From: Acrocarpospora phusangensis
GTDB taxonomy: Bacteria; Actinomycetota; Actinomycetes; Streptosporangiales; Streptosporangiaceae
NCBI RefSeq assembly: GCF_016862995.1
Contig: NZ_BOOA01000036.1
Span: 1 to 64,000, forward strand
Length of the DNA stretch: 64,000 bases
Direction of reading: 5' to 3'
The first letter of the stretch is position 1; each line of letters starts with the position of its first letter. Positions 5,789 to 51,995 of the stretch are shown piece after piece. Under the pieces are notes generated by a model. The model was not told the origin of the DNA, ran no database searches, and saw only the letters and a list, made by a program, of their open reading frames with translations. Position numbers and translations under genes: made by a program.

Positions 5789-6298
5789 TTGGAGTCCCTC
5801 TTCGAGATCGTGGACAGCGTTCCGTACTGGCTGCTGGTGCTGGTGGGCGGGATCGCCCTGTTCGGCGCGTTCCAGTTCTACTACTGGGGCGGCAAGAAGC
5901 TCGGCGGCAAGCTCTACGAGACGCGCATCGGCCGCAGGATCGGGAAAGAGCGCGTCGAGAAGGTGGAGAACGTGGTCCGCCGCTGGGGCGCCCTCTCCGT
6001 CTTCGGATGTTTCTGGGTGCCCGGCGGCCTGCGGCACACGCTGCCGTGGGTGGCGGGCGCGCTCCGCGTCGACTACCGCTGGTATCTGGTGGCCAGCGCG
6101 GTCGGCTGCCTGACCTGGGTCCCGCTCACCGCGTTCGGCCTGTACGCGGGCGTCTGGGCGTGGCTGAGACTGGCCGCCACCTCTCCCCTGTACGGCGGCC
6201 TCACCCTGGCGGCCGTGATCGCCCTGATCGTGTTCTGGCGGCGTCGCCGGCGCGCGAACGCCACGGCGGCCCAGGAAGCCGAAAAGGTCGAGGTCTGA
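5789..6298 (+). CDS. DedA/VTT-like integral membrane protein
   Basis: About 169 aa with three or four membrane segments (SVPYWLLVLVGGIALFGAFQFYYWGG, GALSVFGCFWVPGGLRHTLPWVAG, WYLVASAVGCLTWVPLTAFGLYAG, and a final helix before a basic RRRRRAN tail). The GGKKLGGKLYETRIGRRIGKERVEKVENVVRRWG region followed by a PGGLRHTLPWVAGALR loop matches DedA/SNARE-associated proteins, which have been linked to undecaprenyl-phosphate or lipid flipping. The TTG at 5789 is preferred over TTG 5762 because GGGGAGGT sits seven bases upstream of it. Confidence 0.72.
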   Translation: MESLFEIVDSVPYWLLVLVGGIALFGAFQFYYWGGKKLGGKLYETRIGRRIGKERVEKVENVVRRWGALSVFGCFWVPGGLRHTLPWVAGALRVDYRWYLVASAVGCLTWVPLTAFGLYAGVWAWLRLAATSPLYGGLTLAAVIALIVFWRRRRRANATAAQEAEKVEV

Positions 6299-6379
6299 CC
6301 TGTTCCCTTGTCGGTGGGGGGTTCCGGTGCCATATTCCCCACAGGGGCGTTCGCACCACCCGCGAACCGGGGGCAGTAC

Positions 6380-9692: not shown

Positions 9693-10331
9693 GTGCCTGA
9701 CACGCGAACGCACGTGCATCCGGCCGTGCAGGAAACCGGCTGGCTGAGGGACGCGCGCCGGGCTCGCATGCTGTCGGTGGCGACCCTCGGCTGGCTCGGT
9801 GCGGAGAGCCTGCTCGGGCTCTGGTCGGGCACCCGGGCGCACTCGGTGGCGCTGGTCGGGTGGGGACTGTCGGCGCTGGTGGAGGCGCTGGCCAGCCTGA
9901 TCGTGATCTGGCGGTTCACCGGCGCCCGGCTGCACTCGGCGAACGCGGAGCAGACCGCGTCCCGGGCGGTGGCGCTGAGCTTCTGGCTGCTCGCGCCCTA
10001 TCTCGTGCTGCACGTGGCGCACGATCTGAGCCAGGGTCACCGGGCCGAGCCGAGCGCGGTGGGCATCGCGGTCACCACGATCAGCTTGGTGAGCATGCCC
10101 TTGCTGGGCGTGGCCAAGCGGCGGGTGGGGGCCCGGCTGGGCTCGGCGGCGACGGAGGGCGAGGGCACGCAGAACCTGCTCTGCGCGCTGACCGCGGCCG
10201 GGGTGCTGCTGGGCCTGGCGCTCAACACCATCGGCTGGTGGTGGGTGGATCCGGCGGTGGCGGTGATACTGGCGGCGGTGGCCGTACAGGAGGGGCGCAA
10301 GGCCTGGAAGGGCCACGCCTGCTGCCACTGA
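9693..10331 (+). CDS. Cation-diffusion-facilitator-like membrane protein lacking metal ligands
   Basis: A 212-aa protein with about five or six membrane helices arranged like the CDF transporter core. The helix-2 region reads HSVALVGWGLSALVEALASLIVIWRF and the helix-5/6 region reads TQNLLCALTAAGVLLGLALNTIGWWWVDPAVAVILAAVAVQEG. The Asp/His quartets that bind Zn2+/Mn2+ in CDF helices 2 and 5 are not present, and there is no cytoplasmic C-terminal domain. It is probably a non-transporting or differently specific relative. GTG 9693 follows a GGGGGTCAAG sequence. It ends with a CCH motif. Confidence 0.7.
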   Translation: MPDTRTHVHPAVQETGWLRDARRARMLSVATLGWLGAESLLGLWSGTRAHSVALVGWGLSALVEALASLIVIWRFTGARLHSANAEQTASRAVALSFWLLAPYLVLHVAHDLSQGHRAEPSAVGIAVTTISLVSMPLLGVAKRRVGARLGSAATEGEGTQNLLCALTAAGVLLGLALNTIGWWWVDPAVAVILAAVAVQEGRKAWKGHACCH

Positions 10332-10546
10332 AGCGTCACCACGGCGAGGTCCAGGCCGGCGGCGCGGAGTTCGCGGATCACGCACCGGGCGCCGCCAGGG
10401 TCGGTCCAGACATGGCAGAGCCGGTCCTTCATCACGATTTCGCGTAGATTCGCCAGCCCGCGCAGGCCGTGCCGGATGGCCGGAGTGACTCCCGGCGGGG
10501 CGAATTGGATCAATAACAGGTCACCAGGGCGTCGCCTGACCGCCAC
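10332..10546 (-). pseudogene. Possible gene remnant, unknown family
   Basis: The reverse strand here reads as plausible protein (PGDLLLIQFAPPGVTP, LRGLANLREIVMKDRLCHVW, DPGGARCVIRELRAAGLDLAVVT) with high GC at third positions in its second half. The frame then runs without a stop into the antisense of the upstream CDF-like gene, so any natural 3' end is missing. A GTG at 10546 could be a start. I read it as a truncated remnant, not a working gene; the family is not recognised. Confidence 0.3.
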
Positions 10547-10584
10547 GGCCTGTGACTCCCCCGGTGTCCCCCACACGGCAACCC

Positions 10585-10769
10585 CTGCACTAAAACACGA
10601 AATTTCGTGACCTATGGGGATCACGATACATCGCGTTTGGGCCGTGTCAAGATGTATCGCGTCCTGCACCACAGAACAAGATCTGCATTCGACGGAACGT
10701 AATCACTGCACTAAAAGTATGGTTTTGCCGTTCTTGGGCTTGCCGCTATCGTTCCGTAAGCATTACGGA
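10585..10769. promoter_or_regulatory. Palindrome-rich intergenic segment before the VWA gene
   Basis: This AT-richer spacer holds a perfect 14-bp palindrome CACGAAATTTCGTG (10596-10609). It also holds an inverted pair GATACATC/GATGTATC separated by 18 bp (10625-10658), an 11-bp direct repeat CTGCACTAAAA (10585-10595 and 10706-10716), and an inverted repeat TCCGTAA-gca-TTACGGA (10753-10769). These are visible in the sequence; that they are operators is inference. No other gene is seen between the remnant and the next start at 10838. Confidence 0.5.
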
Positions 10770-10837
10770 GAATCTCCCTATATGGCGTAGCGCAGGCGCG
10801 TACCGTCGGGAGTTCCAACGACACCGAAGAGGCCACC

Positions 10838-12616
10838 GTGGGCGGACGTCATCGCACCGATGAACTCGAAGGCGGCTACAACCCGTACCCCGAACCCCCA
10901 CCGCGGCGGCGCGGCGGCGCGGGCAAGGTGCTGGTGCCGCTGGCCGGGGCGGTCGCGCTCGCGGTCCTGCTCGGCGTGGCCGCGTACGTGGTGGTCAACA
11001 AGGACACCCCCGGCTGCGGCCCGGACAAGGTGGCGCTGAAGGTCATCACGGCCAAGGACGTGGAACCGGCCGTCAAGAAGATCGCCGACAAGTTCAGCAG
11101 GTCCGGCAAGACGATCGACGGCAAGTGCGTGGCGGTCACCGTCTCCGGGGCCGACTCCGCGGGCGTGGCGGCGGCCCTGTCCGGGAACGGCGACGCGGCC
11201 AGGCCCGACATGTGGATCCCCGACTCCAGCCTCTGGCTGGCCGGGCTGCCCTCGGAGAGCGGGGCGAAGGTCGCCGGCAACGTGGCGCAGTCCCCCGTGG
11301 TGCTCACCGCGCCCAAGGCCGCCGCCGCCCAGCTGGCCTCGGCCTTCACCCCCAGCTGGACCGGCATGGTGAACGCCGCCAACGCCGCCAACCCGGACGG
11401 CCTGGCCAAGAAGGTCCGGGTGCTGGTGCTCGACCCGGGCCTGAACGCGGCCGGTCTGGGCGCGCTGGCCGCCGCGGCCGGGGTGCTCAAGGCCAGCGGC
11501 GGCGCCAACACCGAGGAGCTCCTGGTCGGCGTGCTCCGCCAGCTCTCCGAGTCCAAGGTGACCTCCCCCGACAGCCTGTTCGCCACCCTCGCCAAGACCG
11601 CCAACCGGGTGCCCATCGGCGTCACCAGCGAGCAGTCGGTCTGGGCCTTCAACGCCAAGAACGACGCGGCGGCCGTGGCGCTCTACCCGGCCGAGGGAAC
11701 GGTCAACCTGGACTACCCGATCGTCACCACGGTGACCGAGGGCCCCGCCGCCAAGGCCGCCAAGGAGTTCGCCGCCGACCTGGTCACCAGCGCCTCCAAG
11801 AAGACCGTCCAGGAGTACGGCTTCCGCACCCCCGACGGCGTCGGCAGCGCCCTCACCGAGGCCAAGGGCCTCAACCCGAAGGCCCCCACCGCCCTGCCGC
11901 TCCCGGACGCCAAGACGATCGTCACGCTGTCCCAGTCCTGGAAGCGGGTCAGCCTCGGCACCCGGCTGCTCTCCCTGATCGACATCTCCGGCACGATGGC
12001 GCTGCCCGCCGACAAGACCGGCGTGACCCGGATGCAGGCCATCTCCGACGTCGGCATCGAGGGCCTCAAGCTGTTCCCGGACAAGACCGAGATCGGCACC
12101 TGGGTCTTCTCCGACAACCTGAACGGCGCGCGGGTGGACTGGAAGGAGATCATCCCGATCGGCCCGCTGGCCCAGCAGCTGAACGGGATCACCCGGCGCG
12201 AGCTGGTCGACAAGAACCTGCGCGAGCTGAAGGCCATCCCGACCGGCAACACCGGCCTCAACGACACCCTCTGGGCCGCCTACCAGAAGATGACCAAGGA
12301 GTACGAGCCGGACAAGATCAACACGATCCTGCTGTTCACCGACGGCGTCGGCGACGACGACCCGAGCGGCGGCATCAGCGACGCCACGATCCTGAAGCGG
12401 CTGAAGGCCACCTTCAACCCGCAGAAGCCGGTGAGCATCCTGATCATCTCGTTCAACACGGCGGCCGACGAGAACCGCACCCAGATGACCCGGATCGCCC
12501 GGACGACCGGCGGCACGGCCTACTTCCCGCAGACCGTGCTGGAGATCCGCAACATCTTCCTCAAGGGCATCGCCCGCCGTCTCTGCACCCCCAACTGCCC
12601 CACCGGGCAGCAGTAG
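10838..12616 (+). CDS. Membrane-anchored substrate-binding/VWA domain protein
   Basis: A 592-aa protein. A Pro/Arg-rich cytoplasmic N terminus (about 1-28) precedes one membrane helix (about 29-50). An extracellular region resembling a bacterial solute-binding domain follows (about 60-360). The C-terminal von Willebrand factor A domain starts near residue 370, with MIDAS motif DISGT at Asp382 and the conserved FTDGVGDD later on. Cysteines near the N terminus (CGP) and the C terminus (RLCTPNC) could pair. VWA domains bind partners through a chelated metal ion. It is followed by a hairpin terminator and then a membrane-anchored sigma factor. GTG 10838 is the only reasonable start. Confidence 0.8.
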   Translation: MGGRHRTDELEGGYNPYPEPPPRRRGGAGKVLVPLAGAVALAVLLGVAAYVVVNKDTPGCGPDKVALKVITAKDVEPAVKKIADKFSRSGKTIDGKCVAVTVSGADSAGVAAALSGNGDAARPDMWIPDSSLWLAGLPSESGAKVAGNVAQSPVVLTAPKAAAAQLASAFTPSWTGMVNAANAANPDGLAKKVRVLVLDPGLNAAGLGALAAAAGVLKASGGANTEELLVGVLRQLSESKVTSPDSLFATLAKTANRVPIGVTSEQSVWAFNAKNDAAAVALYPAEGTVNLDYPIVTTVTEGPAAKAAKEFAADLVTSASKKTVQEYGFRTPDGVGSALTEAKGLNPKAPTALPLPDAKTIVTLSQSWKRVSLGTRLLSLIDISGTMALPADKTGVTRMQAISDVGIEGLKLFPDKTEIGTWVFSDNLNGARVDWKEIIPIGPLAQQLNGITRRELVDKNLRELKAIPTGNTGLNDTLWAAYQKMTKEYEPDKINTILLFTDGVGDDDPSGGISDATILKRLKATFNPQKPVSILIISFNTAADENRTQMTRIARTTGGTAYFPQTVLEIRNIFLKGIARRLCTPNCPTGQQ

Positions 12617-43603: not shown

Positions 43604-44782
43604 TCATACGCCGACGGATTCCGCGTGCAGGACGGACATCACCTCCCTGATGACGTCGGCCGGGGAGCGCGACCCGGTCACCCGCTTCAGCTCCCGCCCG
43701 CCGTGCAGCAGCAGCACGGACGGCACCGACTCGACCCCGAAGTACTCCGCCGCGGTCGGCGACTCCTCCACGTCGATGGCCGCCCCGGCCAGTTCGTCCG
43801 GGTACTCGGCGAGGATGCGGTCCAGCACCGGCCCGAGGCGCTCGCAGGCCAGCGAGTCGGCCGCGGAGAAGTCGAGCAGCACCGGGACGGGGCCGCGCAG
43901 CAGCTCGTGCAGTTGCTGCGGCCGGCTGATCCGCCGCCGCCGCTCCGCCACGACCGGGCCGCTGTCATGATCGGCCAGCATCCGGGCGTACGCGTCGGCG
44001 TACTCGGGGGCGGCCTGCAAACTGTTGACGGCGAGCCCGGCGAACAGCAGACGGGCGCACGCGGCCCGCGGCACCCGGTCCAGGTCGACCTCGCGCAGCG
44101 GCGGCGCCAGGCTCAGCACCGCCTCCGCGTCCACGGCCCCCGCCAGCGACAACACCCGCAAGCTCCGGGTACGGCCCAGCCGCCGCAACTGCCCCGGATC
44201 CAGCCGCAGCCCGCCGAGCCGCAGATAGCTCAGATCGGGCGGCGTCACCAGCGCGCCCAGGCCGGAACCGGTGATGTTGTCCCCGGTCACGGCCAGCACC
44301 GCGAGCGGCAGTTCGGCCAGCCGGATGAACACCCGGTCGGTGAGGGCCTGCCCGCGCAGCCGTACGGTCAGCAGCGGGGAGTCGGGCAGGGCCACGTCGC
44401 CGGTCATCCGGTCGGAGCGCAGGCAGAGCGTCTCCAGCATGCGCAGTCCGCGCAGTTCCGCCAGCCCCTCGTCGGTGAAGTCGCCGCTCAGGCTGAGGTC
44501 CCGCAGGCCTTCCATGCGGGCCACGACCGCCAGGTCCTCGTCGCGTACGTTGTCGAGGTCCAGGCCGTCGACCTCCGGCAGTTCCGCCAGCCGTTCCGGG
44601 CCGCCGGCCACGTACGTGATCTCGACGTTGCCCGGGATCTCCACCAGGCCCACCGGCTGGAACTCCCCCTGGAGCTGCTCGGCGGGCAGGTCCTCAAGGA
44701 CCAGATAACGGATGACGCCGGGCAGGCTGTCCTCCGGAAAACGGATGATTCTGTTCGTTCCAACGGTACGAAGTTCCCCCAT
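43604..44782 (-). CDS. Leucine-rich-repeat protein fused to a thioredoxin-like domain
   Basis: A 392-aa fusion. The N-terminal two-thirds have irregular leucine-rich repeats (LAELPEVDGLDLDNV, LAVVARMEGLRDLSLSG, LAELRGLRMLETLCLRS, LSYLRLGGLRL). The C-terminal ~100 residues follow the thioredoxin fold (PVLLDFSAADSLACERLGPVLDRILAEYPD, VESVPSVLLLHGG with the cis-Pro). The catalytic WCGPC is replaced by SLAC, keeping only the second cysteine. No signal peptide. The start ATG 44782 is not backed by a strong ribosome site. It is divergent from a Crp/Fnr gene. Confidence 0.72.
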   Translation of the reverse strand: MGELRTVGTNRIIRFPEDSLPGVIRYLVLEDLPAEQLQGEFQPVGLVEIPGNVEITYVAGGPERLAELPEVDGLDLDNVRDEDLAVVARMEGLRDLSLSGDFTDEGLAELRGLRMLETLCLRSDRMTGDVALPDSPLLTVRLRGQALTDRVFIRLAELPLAVLAVTGDNITGSGLGALVTPPDLSYLRLGGLRLDPGQLRRLGRTRSLRVLSLAGAVDAEAVLSLAPPLREVDLDRVPRAACARLLFAGLAVNSLQAAPEYADAYARMLADHDSGPVVAERRRRISRPQQLHELLRGPVPVLLDFSAADSLACERLGPVLDRILAEYPDELAGAAIDVEESPTAAEYFGVESVPSVLLLHGGRELKRVTGSRSPADVIREVMSVLHAESVGV

Positions 44783-44911
44783 GGTCGGTTCGATGCCCAG
44801 GGCGACGACCAGGACAAACGCCGAGCAGAACGAATTATGGGAACGTTCCCGGTAGCAGTCGCATAACAGCGCGTGCGCCGGGCGATGCACGTGTGGTTCG
44901 ATTCGACCGTT

Positions 44912-45622
44912 ATGAGCCACTTATCTGAGCACGATCGGTGGCCTGCCACCAGCCTGATGGGCATGCTCGGGGGCGCCGAGCAGCACGCTCTGCTGGCCAA
45001 GGGAGTCCGGCGGGGCTTTCCGGCCGGGGAGACCCTGGTCAGCGAAGGCGACCGCAGAGACGAGGTCTATCTGCTGGTCAGCGGCTTCGTCAAAATCTTC
45101 GGCAACACCTACGACGGCCGCCAGGTGCTGCTGTCCATCCGGACCACCGGCGACCTCATCGGCGAACTGGCCGCCCTGGACGGCGAGCCGCGCTCGGCCA
45201 CCGTCACCGCCGCCACCAAGACCGAGACCCGCATGTTCGGGAGTGAAACGTTCCGATCCTTCCTGGACGGCCACCCCTCGACCGCCCAGGCCGTGCAGCG
45301 TTACGTCAACCGCAAGCTCCGGCTGGCCACCCGGCACCGGATCGACGTGGGCGGCGCGTCCGTGCTGGTCCGGCTGGCCCGGGTGCTGGACCGGCTCGCC
45401 GTCTCGCACGGGCGCAGGACCGAGGCCGGGATCCGGATCGAGGTGCCGCTCAGCCAGGTCGAACTGGCCGCGCTGGTGGGCGCCGCCGAGCCGAGCGTGC
45501 ACCGGGCCCTGAGCGAGCTGCGCCAGCGCGGAATCCTGGTCACCGGCTACCGGCACATCGTCGTCGCCGACCCCCCGGGGCTCGTCGAGGCCGCCCAAGA
45601 GGCCCCGGATTCCATCGCTTGA
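44912..45622 (+). CDS. Crp/Fnr family transcription regulator
   Basis: About 236 aa. The N-terminal cyclic-nucleotide-type beta barrel includes FPAGETLVSEGDRRDEVYLLVSGFVKIF and GDLIGELAALDGEPRSATVTA. It is followed by the dimerisation helix and a helix-turn-helix (PLSQVELAALVGAAEPSVHRALSELRQRGIL). No cysteine cluster for an Fe-S centre is seen, so Crp-like ligand control is likelier than Fnr-like oxygen sensing. The start is uncertain among GTG 44873, ATG 44885 and ATG 44912. It begins a + strand group that includes a second cNMP-domain protein. Confidence 0.88.
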   Translation: MSHLSEHDRWPATSLMGMLGGAEQHALLAKGVRRGFPAGETLVSEGDRRDEVYLLVSGFVKIFGNTYDGRQVLLSIRTTGDLIGELAALDGEPRSATVTAATKTETRMFGSETFRSFLDGHPSTAQAVQRYVNRKLRLATRHRIDVGGASVLVRLARVLDRLAVSHGRRTEAGIRIEVPLSQVELAALVGAAEPSVHRALSELRQRGILVTGYRHIVVADPPGLVEAAQEAPDSIA

Positions 45623-45680
45623 TGGGGTCTGGGGGCCGATCCCCGCCTACCCTCGCGGGAGTTCACGTTCGAGGAGGATC

Positions 45681-45926
45681 GTGTTGACCACCGACGAGGC
45701 CGGGCGCGCAGAGTCCCTGGAGTCCAACATCAGCAGGCTTCTCACGGCCCTGCCCCCCGGCGGGGCCGAAGCCGTACGGTCCGACCTCGAAACGCTGGTG
45801 CACACGCTGACAGAGCTGGCCTTCCGCATTGAAGTGGACAAGCCCGGCGCGGCGGACGCCTGCCGGAGCACCCGGGATTCGCTGGAGCGGCTCATGTCCC
45901 TTGAAGGTCCACTTCCCAGCACCTAG
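45681..45926 (+). CDS. Small helical protein, unknown
   Basis: An 81-aa acidic protein, mainly helical (SLESNISRLLTALPPGG, SDLETLVHTLTELAFRIEVD, STRDSLERLMSLEG). GAGGAGGATC lies just before GTG 45681. It sits between a Crp/Fnr regulator and a response-regulator fusion on the same strand, so it may belong to their unit. No family recognised. Confidence 0.6.
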   Translation: MLTTDEAGRAESLESNISRLLTALPPGGAEAVRSDLETLVHTLTELAFRIEVDKPGAADACRSTRDSLERLMSLEGPLPST

Positions 45927-45941
45927 GGATCGCGTGGTTGT

Positions 45942-47609
45942 ATGGATCGCATGGCGAACCCCGCGATCCTGACGGTGGACGACGATCCGGCGGTGTCCCG
46001 AGCGGTATCCCGCGATCTGCGCCGCCGTTACGGCGACCGATACCGCATCGTCCGGGCCGACTCGGGCGACGGCGCCCTGGAGGCGCTCCGCGAGATCAAG
46101 CTCCGCGGCGAGCAGGTGGCGCTCCTGCTGGCCGACTACCGCATGCCCCACATGAACGGCATCCAGTTCCTGGAATCGGCGATGGACCTGTTCCCGCTGG
46201 CCAGGCGCGTACTGCTCACCGCGTACGCGGACACCGACGCCGCCATCGACGCGATCAACGTGGTGGACGTCGACCACTACCTGCTCAAGCCGTGGAACCC
46301 ACCGGACGAGAAGCTCTACCCGATCGTGGACTCGCTGCTGGACGCCTGGCGGGCCGAACCCGAACGGCCGACCTCGGAGGTCCGGGTGGTCGGGCACCGC
46401 TGGTCGGCGCCGTCGTTCAAGGTGCGGGACTTCCTGGCGCGCAACCTGGTGCCGTACCGGTGGCTGCTGGCCGACGAGCCGGAGGGATTGCGGCTGCTGT
46501 CCGCGGCCGGGCTCACCGCCGAGGACGTGCCGCTGGTGCTGACCTCGGACGGCAAGTCGCTGACCGCCCCCAGCGAGGCCGAGCTGGCCGTGCACGTCGG
46601 GCTCACCACCACCCCGCAGCTGGACTTCTACGACCTGGTCGTGGTCGGCGCCGGCCCCGCGGGACTGGGCGCGGCCGTGTACGGCGCGTCCGAGGGCCTG
46701 AAGACCGTGCTGGTCGAGCAGCGCGCCACCGGCGGGCAGGCGGGGCAGAGCAGCAGGATCGAGAACTACCTGGGCTTCCCCGACGGCGTCTCCGGCGCGC
46801 AGCTGACCGACCGGGCGCGGCGGCAGGCGCTGCGGTTCGGGGCCGAACTGCTGACCACCCGGGAGGCGGTCGGCCTGGAGTCCGGCGGCACCACCCGGCT
46901 GCTGCGCTTCGGCGACGGCACCACGATCGCCGCCCACGCGGTCGTGCTGGCCACCGGCGTCTCCTACCGCATGCTCAACGCCCCCGGCCTGAACGAGCTG
47001 ACCGGCCGGGGCGTCTTCTACGGCTCCGCCTCCACCGAGGCCCCCAGCTGCTCCGACCAGGACGTCTACATCGTCGGCGGCGCCAACTCGGCCGGCCAGG
47101 CCGCGGTGCACTTCGCCCGGTACGCCTCCCGCGTGCACATCCTGATCAGGGGCGCCGACCTTCGGCAGTCGATGTCCTCGTACCTGATCCAGCAGATCGA
47201 GAGCGTGGACAACATCATCGTCTCGCCGTACACCGAGGTGGTCTCGGCGGGCGGGGACGGGCATCTGGAGTGCCTGACGCTGCGGGACCCCCGCTCCGGC
47301 GAGGTCCGGGTGGTGGAGACCTCGTGGCTGTTCGTCTTCATCGGGGCGGAACCGCGGACGGCCTGGCTGGACGACGCCGTCATGCGCGACCGGCTCGGGT
47401 TCGTGCTCACCGGACCTGATCTCCTGAACGAGGGGCGGCGCCCGCCCGGGTGGACGCTGCCGCGCGATCCGTACCACCTGGAAAGCAGCATGCCGGGCGT
47501 GTTCGCGGCCGGGGACGTCCGGGCGGATTCCGTCAAACGGGTCGCCTCCGCCGTGGGCGAGGGGGCGATGGCCGTGTCGCTGATCCACCGCTATCTGGAG
47601 GCCCAATGA
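45942..47609 (+). CDS. Response regulator fused to a thioredoxin-reductase-like flavoprotein
   Basis: A 555-aa fusion. The receiver domain (about 8-125) has the acidic pocket DDDP, phosphoacceptor Asp65 in LLADYRMPHMNG, Thr in LLTAYAD and Lys in LLKPW. A short thioredoxin/glutaredoxin-like region follows (about 140-220; FKVRDFLARNLVPYRW). The rest is an FAD/NAD(P)H pyridine nucleotide-disulfide reductase fold with VVVGAGPAGLGAAVYGA near 232 and VYIVGGANSAGQAA near 375. The TrxR redox CxxC (CATC) is absent; the region reads YGSASTEAPSCSD. The FAD-binding GDVR motif is present near the C terminus. Its stop overlaps the start of a histidine kinase gene (ATGA). Confidence 0.88.
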   Translation: MDRMANPAILTVDDDPAVSRAVSRDLRRRYGDRYRIVRADSGDGALEALREIKLRGEQVALLLADYRMPHMNGIQFLESAMDLFPLARRVLLTAYADTDAAIDAINVVDVDHYLLKPWNPPDEKLYPIVDSLLDAWRAEPERPTSEVRVVGHRWSAPSFKVRDFLARNLVPYRWLLADEPEGLRLLSAAGLTAEDVPLVLTSDGKSLTAPSEAELAVHVGLTTTPQLDFYDLVVVGAGPAGLGAAVYGASEGLKTVLVEQRATGGQAGQSSRIENYLGFPDGVSGAQLTDRARRQALRFGAELLTTREAVGLESGGTTRLLRFGDGTTIAAHAVVLATGVSYRMLNAPGLNELTGRGVFYGSASTEAPSCSDQDVYIVGGANSAGQAAVHFARYASRVHILIRGADLRQSMSSYLIQQIESVDNIIVSPYTEVVSAGGDGHLECLTLRDPRSGEVRVVETSWLFVFIGAEPRTAWLDDAVMRDRLGFVLTGPDLLNEGRRPPGWTLPRDPYHLESSMPGVFAAGDVRADSVKRVASAVGEGAMAVSLIHRYLEAQ

Positions 47610-49021
47610 GCGAGTTGCTCACCCCCGAGGAGCTCCGCACCCTCTTTCTCTTCGAATCCCTCAACGAGGAACAACTGGCCGTCCTGGCCGAGCACGGCCG
47701 GGTCCAGCACTACCAGGCGGGCAGCGCCGTCTACCGGGAGGGCGAACCGGCCACCTGCTTCGTCGTGCTGCTCAACGGCGTGATCACCCTCAGCCGCCTC
47801 AGCCACGGCGACGAGGTGGAGGTCGCCAGAACCGAACAACGCGGCGTGTACGGCGGAGCCACCCAGACCTACCTCGGCGACCAGGTCGAGCAGATCTACA
47901 TGAACACCATGCACGCGATCAGCGACGTCACGGTGTTCGAGGTGCCCGCCGACATGTTCGCCCGCTGGACCCGGGCCTGGTTCCCGATGGCCATGCACCT
48001 GCTGGAGGGGCTGTTCTTCGGCATGCGGGCCAGCCAGACGATCGTCGGCGAGCGGGAGCGGCTGATCGCGCTCGGGTCGCTGTCGGCCGGGCTCACCCAC
48101 GAGCTGAACAACCCGGCCGCGGCGGCGGTGCGGGCGACGGCCGTCCTGCGCGAACGGGTGACCGGGATGCGCCACAAGCTCGCTATGATCGCCGACGGCC
48201 GGCTGGACGGGCACCGCCTGCACGAACTCGTCGAACTCCAGGAAGCCGCGGTCAAACGCTCCGCCAACGCGCCGCAGCTGTCCGCCCTGGCGACCAGCGA
48301 CGCGGAGGACGCCGTCGCCGACTGGCTGGACGACCACGACGTGACCGCCGGATGGGACATCGCGCCGACGCTGGTCGCGGGCGGCGTGGACGCCGAGTGG
48401 CTGGAGCAGGTCTCGGCCACCATAGGGCCGGAGAACCTGGAAGCGGCGGTGCGCTGGCTCACGTACACGATCGACACCGAACTGCTGATGTGCGAGATCG
48501 ACGACGCGGTCACCCGCATCTCCGGGCTGGTCTCCGCCGCCAAGCAGTACTCCCAGCTGGACCGCGCCCCGCACCAGACCGTCGACGTGCACGACCTGCT
48601 CAACGCCACGCTCACCATGCTCCAGGCCAAGATCCCGGCGGGCGTGCGCGTGGTGAAGGAGTACGACCGCGAGCTGCCGCCCGTGCCCGCGTACGCGGCG
48701 GAGCTCAACCAGGTCTGGACCAACATGATCGACAACGCGCTGAGCGCCATGGAAGGGAACGGGACCCTGACGATCAGCACCAGCCGCGACAGCAGGTGCC
48801 TCATCGTCGAGATCGCCGACACCGGTTCCGGCATTCCGCCGGAGATCCGGCCCAGGATCTTCGAGCCGTTCTTCACCACCAAGCCGGTGGGTGAGGGCAC
48901 CGGCTTGGGGCTGGACATCTCCTACCGGATCGTCGTCAAGAAGCACCACGGGGACATCCGCGTCGAATCAACTCCCGGCGACACCCGCTTCCGGGTCTTC
49001 CTCCCCTTCGAGGACGCCTGA
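47606..49021 (+). CDS. Cyclic-nucleotide-domain histidine kinase
   Basis: A 471-aa soluble sensor kinase. The N-terminal cNMP-binding-like domain (about 10-135; [43 protein letters not shown]) is joined to a HisKA-like helix with phosphoacceptor His165 ([16 protein letters not shown]). An HATPase follows with N box [15 protein letters not shown]1 DTGSGIP and G2 GTGLGLDIS. No membrane helices are seen. ATG 47606 overlaps the upstream TGA, so it is co-translated with the receiver-flavoprotein and is its likely cognate kinase. Known relatives pair with such fusions; the ligand is unknown. Confidence 0.87.
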
Positions 49022-49024
49022 TGG

Positions 49025-49807
49025 TCAGCGGTTCTTCGTTCCGCCGATGACCAGGACGTCTCCGGCGGCGGAGTCGGTGGCGGCTTGCTTGCCGGAGTCG
49101 GGTTCTGTGCCGGACTCCGGCTCTCCTGCCGGGCGGACGCGCGGGCGGCGGAGCCGCTGGACCAGGAGGGTGCCGGCGACGGCGGCCACGGCGACCACCG
49201 CCAGCAGGTAGGCGGGGATCGAAGCCGGAGCCTCCGCCGGCTTCGGCTGCGCGGCTGCCTGCGTGGCGGCGGCCACCGGTGCCGCTGGTGCTTCCGGCTG
49301 GGCGGCCGGCATCGTCGCCTTGCCGCTGACCGTGCCCTTCCACGGGAAGCCCGGGGGCTTGATCTCGCCCCAGTAGTCCGTCACCTCGAAGGAGCCTTCC
49401 GCGACGAACTGCGGCGGCGCGGGGACCAGGGTGCCGGGCACGGTGAGCGTCCCGATCTCGTACTCGGCGAAGACGCCCTGGATGCCCTGGACCCGCCAGG
49501 TGCCCTTGGGGATCTTGACGGCGACCGCGTAGTGGGCGGGTTCGGGGAGGCGGGAGCCGATGAACTCCAGGACGGCGCCCTTCTCGTCGGTCAGGCGCAG
49601 ACCGGTCTCCCCCAGCCGCGTCTCCGGACCCTCGAACGGGTGGGTGCCGTGCTGGAGCGTCCAGTAGCCGACCGTGTAAGCCTGATCGGCGTCGATCCGA
49701 TCGGGCAGCGGGTCCAGCTCGGTGACCGCCCAGTTTCCCGCGTACGCGGGGGCCGCCATCGCGACCACGACCACCAGAGACCCGATAATCGCGAAAATTC
49801 GTCTCAT
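49025..49807 (-). CDS. Secreted, C-terminally anchored protein, unknown
   Basis: A 260-aa protein with a signal peptide (IFAIIGSLVVVVAMAAPAYA). A beta-rich extracellular domain follows (GNWAVTELDPLPDRID...AYTVGYWTLQHGTHPF; TWRVQGIQGVFAEYEIGTLTVPG), then an Ala/Pro-rich linker, a C-terminal membrane helix (about 203-220; IPAYLLAVVAVAAVAGTLLVQ) and a short cytoplasmic tail. The domain looks like a transport-linked periplasmic-type fold, but I cannot name a family. GGAGGTGC precedes ATG 49807. Confidence 0.7.
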   Translation of the reverse strand: MRRIFAIIGSLVVVVAMAAPAYAGNWAVTELDPLPDRIDADQAYTVGYWTLQHGTHPFEGPETRLGETGLRLTDEKGAVLEFIGSRLPEPAHYAVAVKIPKGTWRVQGIQGVFAEYEIGTLTVPGTLVPAPPQFVAEGSFEVTDYWGEIKPPGFPWKGTVSGKATMPAAQPEAPAAPVAAATQAAAQPKPAEAPASIPAYLLAVVAVAAVAGTLLVQRLRRPRVRPAGEPESGTEPDSGKQAATDSAAGDVLVIGGTKNR

Positions 49808-49856
49808 CTTCGCACCTCCGGCTGTTCTACACCGCCCACCCTCCGGAGGTTCCGAT

Positions 49857-50525
49857 ATGACACAGTCGAACATCTGTTTGTACAGTCGAGAGATGGAGAC
49901 ACTGTTCCAAGGCTCACTGCTCGACTGGGGAGACGAAGTCGGCCCAGGCCCGCTCGGCACCACCGTCCGCAGAACCACCCTGGCCCACGGCGCCTGGATC
50001 GACCTGCGCCCGGCCTGGATCTCCGGCGCCGACACCCTGTTCCGCCGCCTCGCCGCCACCGTCCCGTGGCACGCCGAACGACGCCGCATGTACGACACCA
50101 TGGTCGACGTCCCACGCCTGCTCAGCTTCTACAACGAGGGCGAGACCCTCCCCGACCCGGCGCTCCAGGAGGCCAAGGACCTCCTCAACGCCCACTACGC
50201 CGAAGAACTGGGCGAACCCTTCCGCACCGCCGGCCTCTGCCTCTACCGCGACGGCCGCGACAGCGTCGCCTGGCACGGCGACCGCATCGGCCGCGGCAGA
50301 ACCGAGGACACCATGGTCGCGATCATCTCGGTCGGGACCCCGCGCAACCTGCTCCTCCGCCCACGCGGCGGAGGCGGCCCCACCCTCCGCCGCGAACTCG
50401 GCCACGGCGACCTCCTGGTGATGGGCGGCAGCTGCCAGCGCACCTGGGAACACTGCATCCCCAAAACCACCCGGGTCATGGGCGCCCGCATCAGCATCCA
50501 GTTCCGCCCCAGGGGCGTACGGTAG
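49857..50525 (+). CDS. AlkB-like 2-oxoglutarate/Fe(II) dioxygenase
   Basis: A 222-aa enzyme resembling AlkB nucleic-acid demethylases. Fe ligands are the His and Asp of WHGDRIG and the His of WEHCIPK; the 2-oxoglutarate arginine lies in ARISIQFRPRG. The YNEG and AGLCLYRDGRDSVAWH regions match the family. It could remove alkyl lesions such as 1-methyladenine from DNA or RNA. CGGAGG precedes ATG 49857. Confidence 0.88.
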   Translation: MTQSNICLYSREMETLFQGSLLDWGDEVGPGPLGTTVRRTTLAHGAWIDLRPAWISGADTLFRRLAATVPWHAERRRMYDTMVDVPRLLSFYNEGETLPDPALQEAKDLLNAHYAEELGEPFRTAGLCLYRDGRDSVAWHGDRIGRGRTEDTMVAIISVGTPRNLLLRPRGGGGPTLRRELGHGDLLVMGGSCQRTWEHCIPKTTRVMGARISIQFRPRGVR

Positions 50526-51320: not shown

Positions 51321-51878
51321 TCATGCGGGGAAGCGGATGAACGACGGAGGGACGTGATCGGTGAGCCAGACGCCGTTGGCGCTGCGGAAGAAGGCGTGGC
51401 CGCCCGCGTGCATGGCCCCTGAGTCGATGGTGAGGATGATCGGGCGGCCGCGTCGCGCGCCGACCCGGGTGGCGGTCTCCTGGTCCGGGGACAGGTGGAC
51501 GTGCTGGCGTCTCATGCGCAGCAGACCGTCCGCCCTGATGCCGGGCAGGCTCGCCGCGACCGTGCCGTGGAACAGCGAGGGCGGCGGTTCGACCTCGGGC
51601 AGGTCCAGGTCCACGTCGATCGAATGACCCTGGCTGGCACGGATGCGGTCACCCTCGATCACGAACCGCTGCTTGTCGTTGCCGGCGACCACATCGGCCA
51701 GCTCCGCCAACGAGATGGGGAACCCATGCGCCCGCGCCGCCGCCAGCAGGTCCGACACCGGCACCCAGCCATTCGGGTCCAACGCGATACCGATCCGCTC
51801 GGGCTGATGACGGAGATGCTTGGAAAGGTACTTCGAGACACGCACCAGGCGCCGCTCGTCCACCACCATCACATCCAT
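51321..51878 (-). CDS. kptA: RNA 2'-phosphotransferase (KptA/Tpt1)
   Basis: A 185-aa enzyme that transfers a 2'-phosphate from RNA to NAD+. The N-terminal winged-helix-like region (RVSKYLSKHLRHQPERIGI; WVPVSDLLAAARAHG) leads to the ADP-ribosyltransferase-like fold. The catalytic set Arg-His-Arg-Arg shows in SKHLRHQPE, ASQGHSI, LFHGT and HVHLSPD. In bacteria, which lack tRNA splicing by this route, the physiological role is uncertain. The start could also be ATG 51869. Confidence 0.92.
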   Translation of the reverse strand: MDVMVVDERRLVRVSKYLSKHLRHQPERIGIALDPNGWVPVSDLLAAARAHGFPISLAELADVVAGNDKQRFVIEGDRIRASQGHSIDVDLDLPEVEPPPSLFHGTVAASLPGIRADGLLRMRRQHVHLSPDQETATRVGARRGRPIILTIDSGAMHAGGHAFFRSANGVWLTDHVPPSFIRFPA

Positions 51879-51995
51879 TCCGGGTCCGGAGGAATCCCCC
51901 TCAAATCGTGGCCGAAACCACCTCCCACCCGCCATCGGTTTTCGATCAATGGGTGGGAGGTCGCAGGCTCGGGCCCGTACGTCACGTGACCGTGG

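Follow-up and report, generated by a model that had tools for sequence, protein, structure and literature searches.

A receiver-mycoredoxin-like-thioredoxin reductase-like fusion without its original dithiol centres and its candidate partner kinase in Acrocarpospora phusangensis

We analysed a 64,000-nucleotide stretch of the Acrocarpospora phusangensis genome (the window; positions 1 to 64,000 of contig NZ_BOOA01000036.1, assembly GCF_016862995.1; the genome comprises 9.1 Mb in 219 contigs), in which two overlapping genes may encode a two-component system with an enzyme as its output. The first gene (45942–47609; all features are on the + strand unless noted; alternative ATG at 45951) encodes a 555-residue fusion of a receiver (REC) domain, a mycoredoxin-like domain and a flavoprotein core resembling thioredoxin reductase (TrxR). 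The second (47606–49021) encodes a 471-residue histidine kinase with an input domain of cyclic nucleotide-binding (CNB) fold. In our reading, to which we assign a probability of about 0.5, phosphorylation of Asp65 in the receiver gates flavin electron transfer. An initial annotation of this DNA had proposed a Crp/Fnr-type protein, a receiver-flavoenzyme fusion and a CNB-type kinase, the last two overlapping by the four bases ATGA. Pfam searches found all three at the claimed places, and the overlap of the kinase start with the fusion stop was confirmed. The description of the fusion was right for both named domains and incomplete, since the mycoredoxin-like domain (residues 145–222) that sits between them had been overlooked.

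The strongest evidence for the pairing came from gene distribution. Two queries, the fusion and kinase residues 1–304, were run against the same 150 family genomes, and the rows were classed by hand. The fusion was near-full-length in 97 genomes and split or at a contig edge in 4 more; the matches listed reached down to weak ones, far below the score that a full-length fusion would give. The kinase was found in 101 genomes, a set identical to the fusion carriers, and 49 genomes had neither gene (Fisher p 1e-40 for co-occurrence, the 150 genomes not being independent). Four genomes with weak CNB matches only (G019, G049, G055 and G074; E 2.9e-5 to 7.9e-4) were scored as kinase-negative. Gene order was equally regular: in all 80 named actinomycete loci, which were the best 80 of 592 matches, the kinase lay downstream of the fusion on the same strand. 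The distance between the two matches was at most 163 nt in 79 of these loci and about 1.3 kb in the remaining one (L106). The nearest possible kinase start codon overlapped or abutted the fusion in 37 of the 80, and the fusion stop read RTGA in 64. The kinase was also present in all 29 loci L024–L052, in all 11 loci L062–L072 and within the locus in three (L054, L058 and L059) of the eight with more diverged fusions (L053–L060); the seven genomes checked among those with such a diverged fusion had as many kinase relatives as fusions with an intact receiver.

A tblastn search against plasmids returned 136 records, 10 of them with at least 80% query coverage: four from actinomycetes, two from Burkholderiales, one from Deinococcus and three from cyanobacteria. 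A kinase homologue was present in all 10 loci, directly downstream of the fusion in 9. As judged from sequence, the fusion-kinase pair is old and widespread in bacteria. Caballeronia, Deinococcus and Paraburkholderia (L179, L180 and L190) have a second kinase relative on the upstream side of the fusion, and a gene annotated as 'low temperature requirement protein A' lay near the pair in Deinococcus and on two Nostoc plasmids (L180, L181 and L182). In the Tsukamurella loci L187, L105 and L143, genes for S-(hydroxymethyl)mycothiol dehydrogenase and an MBL-fold hydrolase were found near the module; for L053, they were recognized by similarity.

The receiver (Response_reg, residues 9–121, E 5.4e-13; 45966–46304) retained the acidic pocket, Asp65, Thr93 and Lys116, as had been claimed for the window protein. 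Asp65 (codon 46134–46136) is the predicted phospho-acceptor. In an alignment of 44 REC-type sequences, from which a degenerate receiver (L060) was left out, D13, D14, D15, D65, T93 and K116 were invariant. In the L060 fusion itself, the REC region (about 5983–6350) lacked the phospho-accepting Asp, the core lacked Cys370 and no kinase was found in the locus, the contig of which stops about 1.3 kb downstream of the fusion and limits that absence. The phosphorelay proposed in the initial annotation is supported by the exceptionless co-occurrence in 150 genomes, by the downstream position of the kinase in 80 of 80 loci and by the absence of the kinase beside the CNB-fused and Asp-less forms of the enzyme. 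Kinase and receiver are very probably partners, and the receiver would accept phosphate from the kinase by phosphotransfer.

The kinase carries the expected catalytic residues. His165, the predicted phospho-acceptor (codon 48098–48100, in the motif LTHELNNP), was present in 31 of 31 kinase sequences, together with N377, D405, G407, G409, G433 and G435; over the H box and the N, G1, F and G2 boxes, 14 of the 15 residues checked were found in all 31 sequences and E166 in 30. The HATPase_c catalytic domain spanned residues 365–469 (48698–49012; E 1.6e-25). Pfam HisKA at E 0.01 matched 7 of the 31 members, the window kinase not among them, and the DHp hairpin was modelled with an insertion. The AF2 model of the kinase (pTM 0.43) showed helices at 126–196 and 275–319 with shorter helices between them, forming a helical insertion at residues ~197–274 (48194–48427). 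Near-full-length kinase matches across phyla spanned residues 197–274, and a profile search of the PDB with the insertion found nothing under E 0.34. Foldseek with the whole kinase gave ordinary kinases among the matches listed.

The input domain of the kinase (residues 10–124, 47633–47977) matched cNMP_binding with E 8.3e-9 (Pfam span 34–120), and this family was matched in all 31 kinase sequences. The cassette motif with a phosphate-binding Arg is, on our assumption, GE..x(R)[ST]A (PRSA type). None of the 28 kinase CNB domains compared had that Arg at the aligned position; in the second Deinococcus kinase, an Arg stood one residue earlier than the cassette place. The proposed cyclic nucleotide input was thus correct as to fold and unsupported as to ligand: because the kinase CNB lacks the phosphate-binding Arg, a cyclic nucleotide is not expected to be what it binds. 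A possible swap of CNB domains between kinase and enzyme was considered with a tree of 59 such domains: the kinase, enzyme and Crp groups required 5 changes (minimum 2), and the CNB-fused enzymes L185 and L193 fell among the kinase CNBs with weak support (85/51).

The middle domain of the fusion (46374–46607) was identified by profile comparisons. Pfam gave no match to residues 145–222 of the window protein; its Glutaredoxin family was hit in 12 of 39 sequences, with E 7e-4 at best. These 39, of 45 extracted sequences, made up a profile that omitted the shortened L053 and L057–L059 as well as L072 and L159. Searched against the PDB, the profile had a single match below 0.001, mycoredoxin-1 of Mycobacterium tuberculosis (2lqo, Rv3198.1; E 1.3e-4). 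The NCBIfam mycoredoxin model TIGR02200 matched 37 of the 39 members (best E 2.3e-6), with 15.3 bits for the window member vs a cut-off of 89.5. Hhalign paired the profile with the mycoredoxin of the same genome (L178) at a probability of 97.7% (E 1.9e-12) and with its thioredoxin (TrxA), used as a control, at 0.1%. The AF2 model showed a beta-alpha-beta-alpha-beta-beta-alpha order, which we take to be that of glutaredoxins.

The catalytic motif of this domain has been erased. The window protein reads WSAPS at the place of mycoredoxin WCGPC. Across 135 sequences, mostly close relatives and not independent, position 155 (the first Cys place) held Ser in 122, Ala in 4, Asn in 3, Asp in 3 and Val, Leu and Thr in one each, and Cys in none. 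The second place held Ser in 96, Thr in 21, Ala in 8, Cys in 8 and Gly in 2; no sequence had a CxxC in the domain, the 8 with Cys retaining a single one. Pro197, presumably the cis-Pro position of a glutaredoxin-type fold, was present in all 135 and Pro210 in 132. By sequence profile and the order of elements in the model, the middle domain is a mycoredoxin homologue that lost its catalytic cysteine pair. We considered mycothiol as its specific ligand, given that mycoredoxin was the best match, and did not adopt it: Burkholderiales, Deinococcus and cyanobacteria, which are not known to make mycothiol, also have REC-type relatives.

The core (residues 229–555, 46626–47606; Pfam Pyr_redox_2 at 230–541) is TrxR-like, with TrxR matches in the PDB down to E 5.6e-41. 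A VIA-align fold search with residues 226–555 aligned it to 5mh4 over 301 residues (Z 35.3, 1.8 Å). The claim that the TrxR CxxC had been lost was borne out: no Cys was found at positions 361 or 364 in the 135 sequences, and the window protein has G361 and S364 there, as read by eye from the alignment. With the Cys pair of the middle domain and the TrxR CxxC both lost, neither original dithiol centre remains. The FAD motif is kept (G236 in 134 of 135 sequences; G238, G241 and D525 in all 135), and the FAD-site residues rank among the best-conserved positions of the fusion. FAD is highly likely to be bound in the core, and NAD(P)H would bind there as well. Some Streptomyces and other sequences have a Cys at about position 356.

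In 21 loci of family genomes (L061 and L158–L177), a CNB domain takes the receiver's place ahead of the same middle domain and core. The kinase of the pair stood beside the CNB-fused form in none of these 21 loci, most of which had about 4 kb of flank and some of which were ended by contig edges; matches to the kinase query fell within the CNB domains (L158, L169, L170 and L172), and one locus (L165) had a HATPase match. Because these 21 loci have a CNB for the receiver and lack the kinase, we conclude that the core has different regulatory domains in different lineages; among the loci seen, the kinase accompanies the receiver form only. A ClpB match was present in 11 of the 21 loci (55.6% in L164, 75–78% elsewhere) and a thioredoxin (trxA) match in 12. 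On annotated plasmids, the order was J-domain protein, cbpM, clpB, trxA, zf-UBP, CNB-TrxR and DUF1931. Together, the annotated plasmids L184 and L192 and the CNB-type loci with clpB or trxA look like a protein-folding stress operon.

A gene for a ubiquitin-hydrolase-type zinc finger protein (zf-UBP) recurred near the pair. In tblastn searches with 12 of the cluster's 19 members, it followed downstream of the kinase at a distance of up to 400 nt in 36 of the 80 named loci and lay at another place of the locus in one further case; L117 ended too early to judge. Anywhere in the genome, zf-UBP was found in 95 of 101 genomes with the pair vs 24 of 49 without it. The genome of the window has a single zf-UBP gene, on a different contig, where it adjoins a Na+/H+ exchanger gene. 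The closest solved relative of its product is 2ida.

We propose the following mechanism. The cytoplasmic kinase would use its CNB-fold domain to sense a signal, though not by classical cAMP binding, autophosphorylate at His165 and hand the phosphate on to Asp65 of the fusion, its translationally coupled partner. The phosphorylated receiver would then act on the TrxR-like core through the mycoredoxin-like domain, which, being incapable of dithiol exchange, may now be a coupling or docking part. In TrxR, the domains rotate and a docking face receives thioredoxin; with that enzyme as a model only, electron transfer from NAD(P)H to FAD could be gated by allowing or blocking a TrxR-type domain rotation, or by opening a partner-docking face. 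Electrons would bypass the two lost dithiols and go to quinone, oxygen, another carrier or a protein partner, with the zf-UBP protein as a candidate partner or adaptor. The input signal and the electron acceptor are parts of the scheme that we infer. More broadly, and at somewhat less than even odds, a mycoredoxin-TrxR-like relay may have lost both dithiols, with its NAD(P)H-flavin core coming under a dedicated kinase and its sister proteins under a CNB domain; it would then exist in one- and two-component forms, possibly with zf-UBP as a third partner.

Several observations weigh against this proposal. Four receiver-bearing diverged fusions (L053 and L055–L057) had no kinase in the fetched locus; a kinase relative lay on the same contig about 17 kb (L055) and about 26 kb (L056) away and on another contig for L053 and L057. 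On a Nostoc edaphicum plasmid (L181), the nearby kinase (10287–11678) retains the kinase part of the family behind an N-terminal REC that replaces the CNB, its match begins at residue 140, and transposase and bestrophin genes lie between it and the fusion. The NADPH-binding motif of TrxR, which we take to be HRRxxxR, is only partly kept: one of its Arg residues, R403, never varies, and Gly stands at the following Arg place in the window protein, so that the cofactor may be NADPH or NADH. Two of the 135 sequences (L069 and L072) carry a CxxC formed by Cys370 and Cys373, off the dithiol place of TrxR, and a dithiol is possible in these members. The AF2 model of the fusion had a pTM of 0.68, with pLDDT below 50 at 140–144 and 270–283; its domain packing is unreliable on that account. 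Finally, gene linkage speaks for partnership and not for direction, and the flavoprotein could feed into the kinase.

Under such a reverse flow, sensing would fall to the flavoprotein: its flavin, through its redox or NAD(P)H state, would alter the lifetime of receiver phosphorylation or the phosphatase activity of the kinase. The real output would be another partner, for example a second response regulator or the zf-UBP protein. Loss of the dithiols alongside retained FAD and dinucleotide motifs is more in keeping with a sensor than with a reductase. The pair itself lacks a DNA-binding output, and zf-UBP directly follows the kinase in the 36 loci mentioned above. However, the CNB-fused relatives have an N-terminal regulatory domain and no such kinase adjoining, which suggests that the core is the regulated part. 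We consider a sensory flavoprotein rather unlikely.

The phospho-gated enzyme could also be a reductase that uses the lone Cys370 (codon 47049–47051) and relies on an external thioredoxin or thiol for the rest of the disulfide chemistry. Cys370 is the only widely conserved core cysteine (130 of 135 sequences) and ends helix 363–370 in the AF2 model, presumably the helix that follows the CxxC in TrxR; the second Cys three residues on in L069 and L072 and the trxA matches in 12 of 21 CNB-type loci fit the same idea. However, by sequence Cys370 aligns approximately with what we take to be Tyr143 of Escherichia coli TrxR, which is neither catalytic Cys. It is also missing from 5 of 135 sequences: L060 with its degenerate receiver, the CNB-type L164, L185 and L193, and the REC-type L180 from Deinococcus, which keeps the phospho-Asp and an adjoining kinase. 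Because of these five, Cys370 is not strictly required across the family. Its use in this way is quite improbable. That the core is a dead scaffold, in which phosphorylation alters oligomer state or partner binding and electron transfer is irrelevant, would suit the erasure of both original thiol centres and the pseudo-redoxin nature of the middle domain and is very unlikely given the conservation of the FAD site.

Upstream of the pair, the Crp/Fnr-family regulator (44912–45622, 236 residues; cNMP_binding E 2.5e-21, HTH_Crp_2 E 1.4e-15) has an intact phosphate-binding cassette, GELAALDGEPRSA, with the Arg present in the alignment. Its inclusion in the module by the initial annotation was not borne out, as its neighbourhood with the pair is not conserved among relatives. 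A close Crp stood beside the pair in 2 of 49 relatives' loci (L024 and L027, 76–89% identity), 29 of the 49 carrying just 1.5 kb of flank; two further matches at 25–28% identity were CNB cross-matches. None of the 80 named loci had a Crp match at E 1e-3 near the pair. The Crp protein was rejected as a partner because of this poor conservation. A Crp-like palindrome (TGTGAN6TCACA, 2 mismatches allowed) was not found near the operon, and the whole window had 4 vs 11.1 expected. Between the Crp gene and the fusion, an 80-residue open reading frame with a TTG start (45684–45926) had no family match; among 129 loci searched it matched only in L024 (1 of 49 and 0 of 80; 91% over 68 residues). A promoter and terminator scan of 44700–49200 gave nothing that exceeded chance. 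The divergent neighbour (43604–44782, - strand) encodes a protein with a C-terminal thioredoxin domain (Pfam E 1.6e-9), read by eye as seemingly lacking the usual WCxxC and preceded by a leucine-rich-repeat-like part. Further downstream lie genes for a 2OG-Fe(II) oxygenase, perhaps of AlkB type (49722–50525, + strand; Pfam E 1.7e-15), and a Tpt1/KptA RNA 2'-phosphotransferase (51321–51935, - strand; Pfam E 6.3e-49).

The fusion resembles several known proteins without being any of them. Its closest named relative found was a Sphaerisporangium protein (82% identity; very near records were possibly omitted from the listing). The first Foldseek match of the fusion was AhpF, in which a thioredoxin-fold part lies ahead of a TrxR core. 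Unlike AhpF, the fusion has neither dithiol centre, a single glutaredoxin-type domain and an added REC, and it scored 157.7 bits against TIGR03140, far below the cut-off of 502.9; with the CxxC centres also absent, it was not identified as AhpF. The low-Mr thioredoxin reductase TrxB shares the FAD/NAD(P) fold (the Z of 35.3 above), whereas the fusion lacks the CxxC at the usual place, carries an N-terminal REC and a pseudo-redoxin, and reached 198.9 on TIGR01292 vs a cut-off of 343.45. With mycoredoxin-1 (Mrx1, TIGR02200), the middle domain has in common a sequence profile and the order of elements; it differs in that the catalytic Cys pair is replaced and that it is part of a fusion. Proteins annotated as 'Cyclic nucleotide-binding domain-containing thioredoxin-disulfide reductase' or 'FAD-dependent oxidoreductase' have the same mycoredoxin-like and TrxR-like core (about 41–51% identity); in the former, the CNB replaces the receiver, no such kinase lay beside the genes examined, and several were near clpB and trxA.

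Most response regulators act on DNA, and enzyme outputs are a minority. A census of archaeal two-component systems (2018) listed a fusion of REC and thioredoxin reductase, a 'Mycobacterium-like combination', in two Heimdallarchaeota organisms (PMC5847659). These fusions share the REC and TrxR architecture with the window fusion, and the census passages on them mention neither a middle domain, lost cysteines, a partner kinase nor a function (PMC5847659). Because this census and public records, including those of the CNB-fused form, name such fusions, the REC-TrxR architecture counts as already catalogued. Within our searches of open-licence papers, only these census passages dealt with REC-TrxR fusions; we found no functional study, nor any account of the lost thiols, of the middle domain as a pseudo-mycoredoxin or of the strict pairing with the kinase.

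If phosphorylation gates the flavoenzyme, the pair would connect a sensor kinase directly with the electron flow of the cell in a wide range of bacteria, namely actinomycetes, some Burkholderiales, Deinococcus and cyanobacteria. A redox enzyme would then be under direct two-component control, possibly with a ubiquitin-hydrolase-type zinc finger partner. The existence of receiver-fused and CNB-fused forms, together with the erased thiols, makes the electron acceptor a clean and directly testable question.

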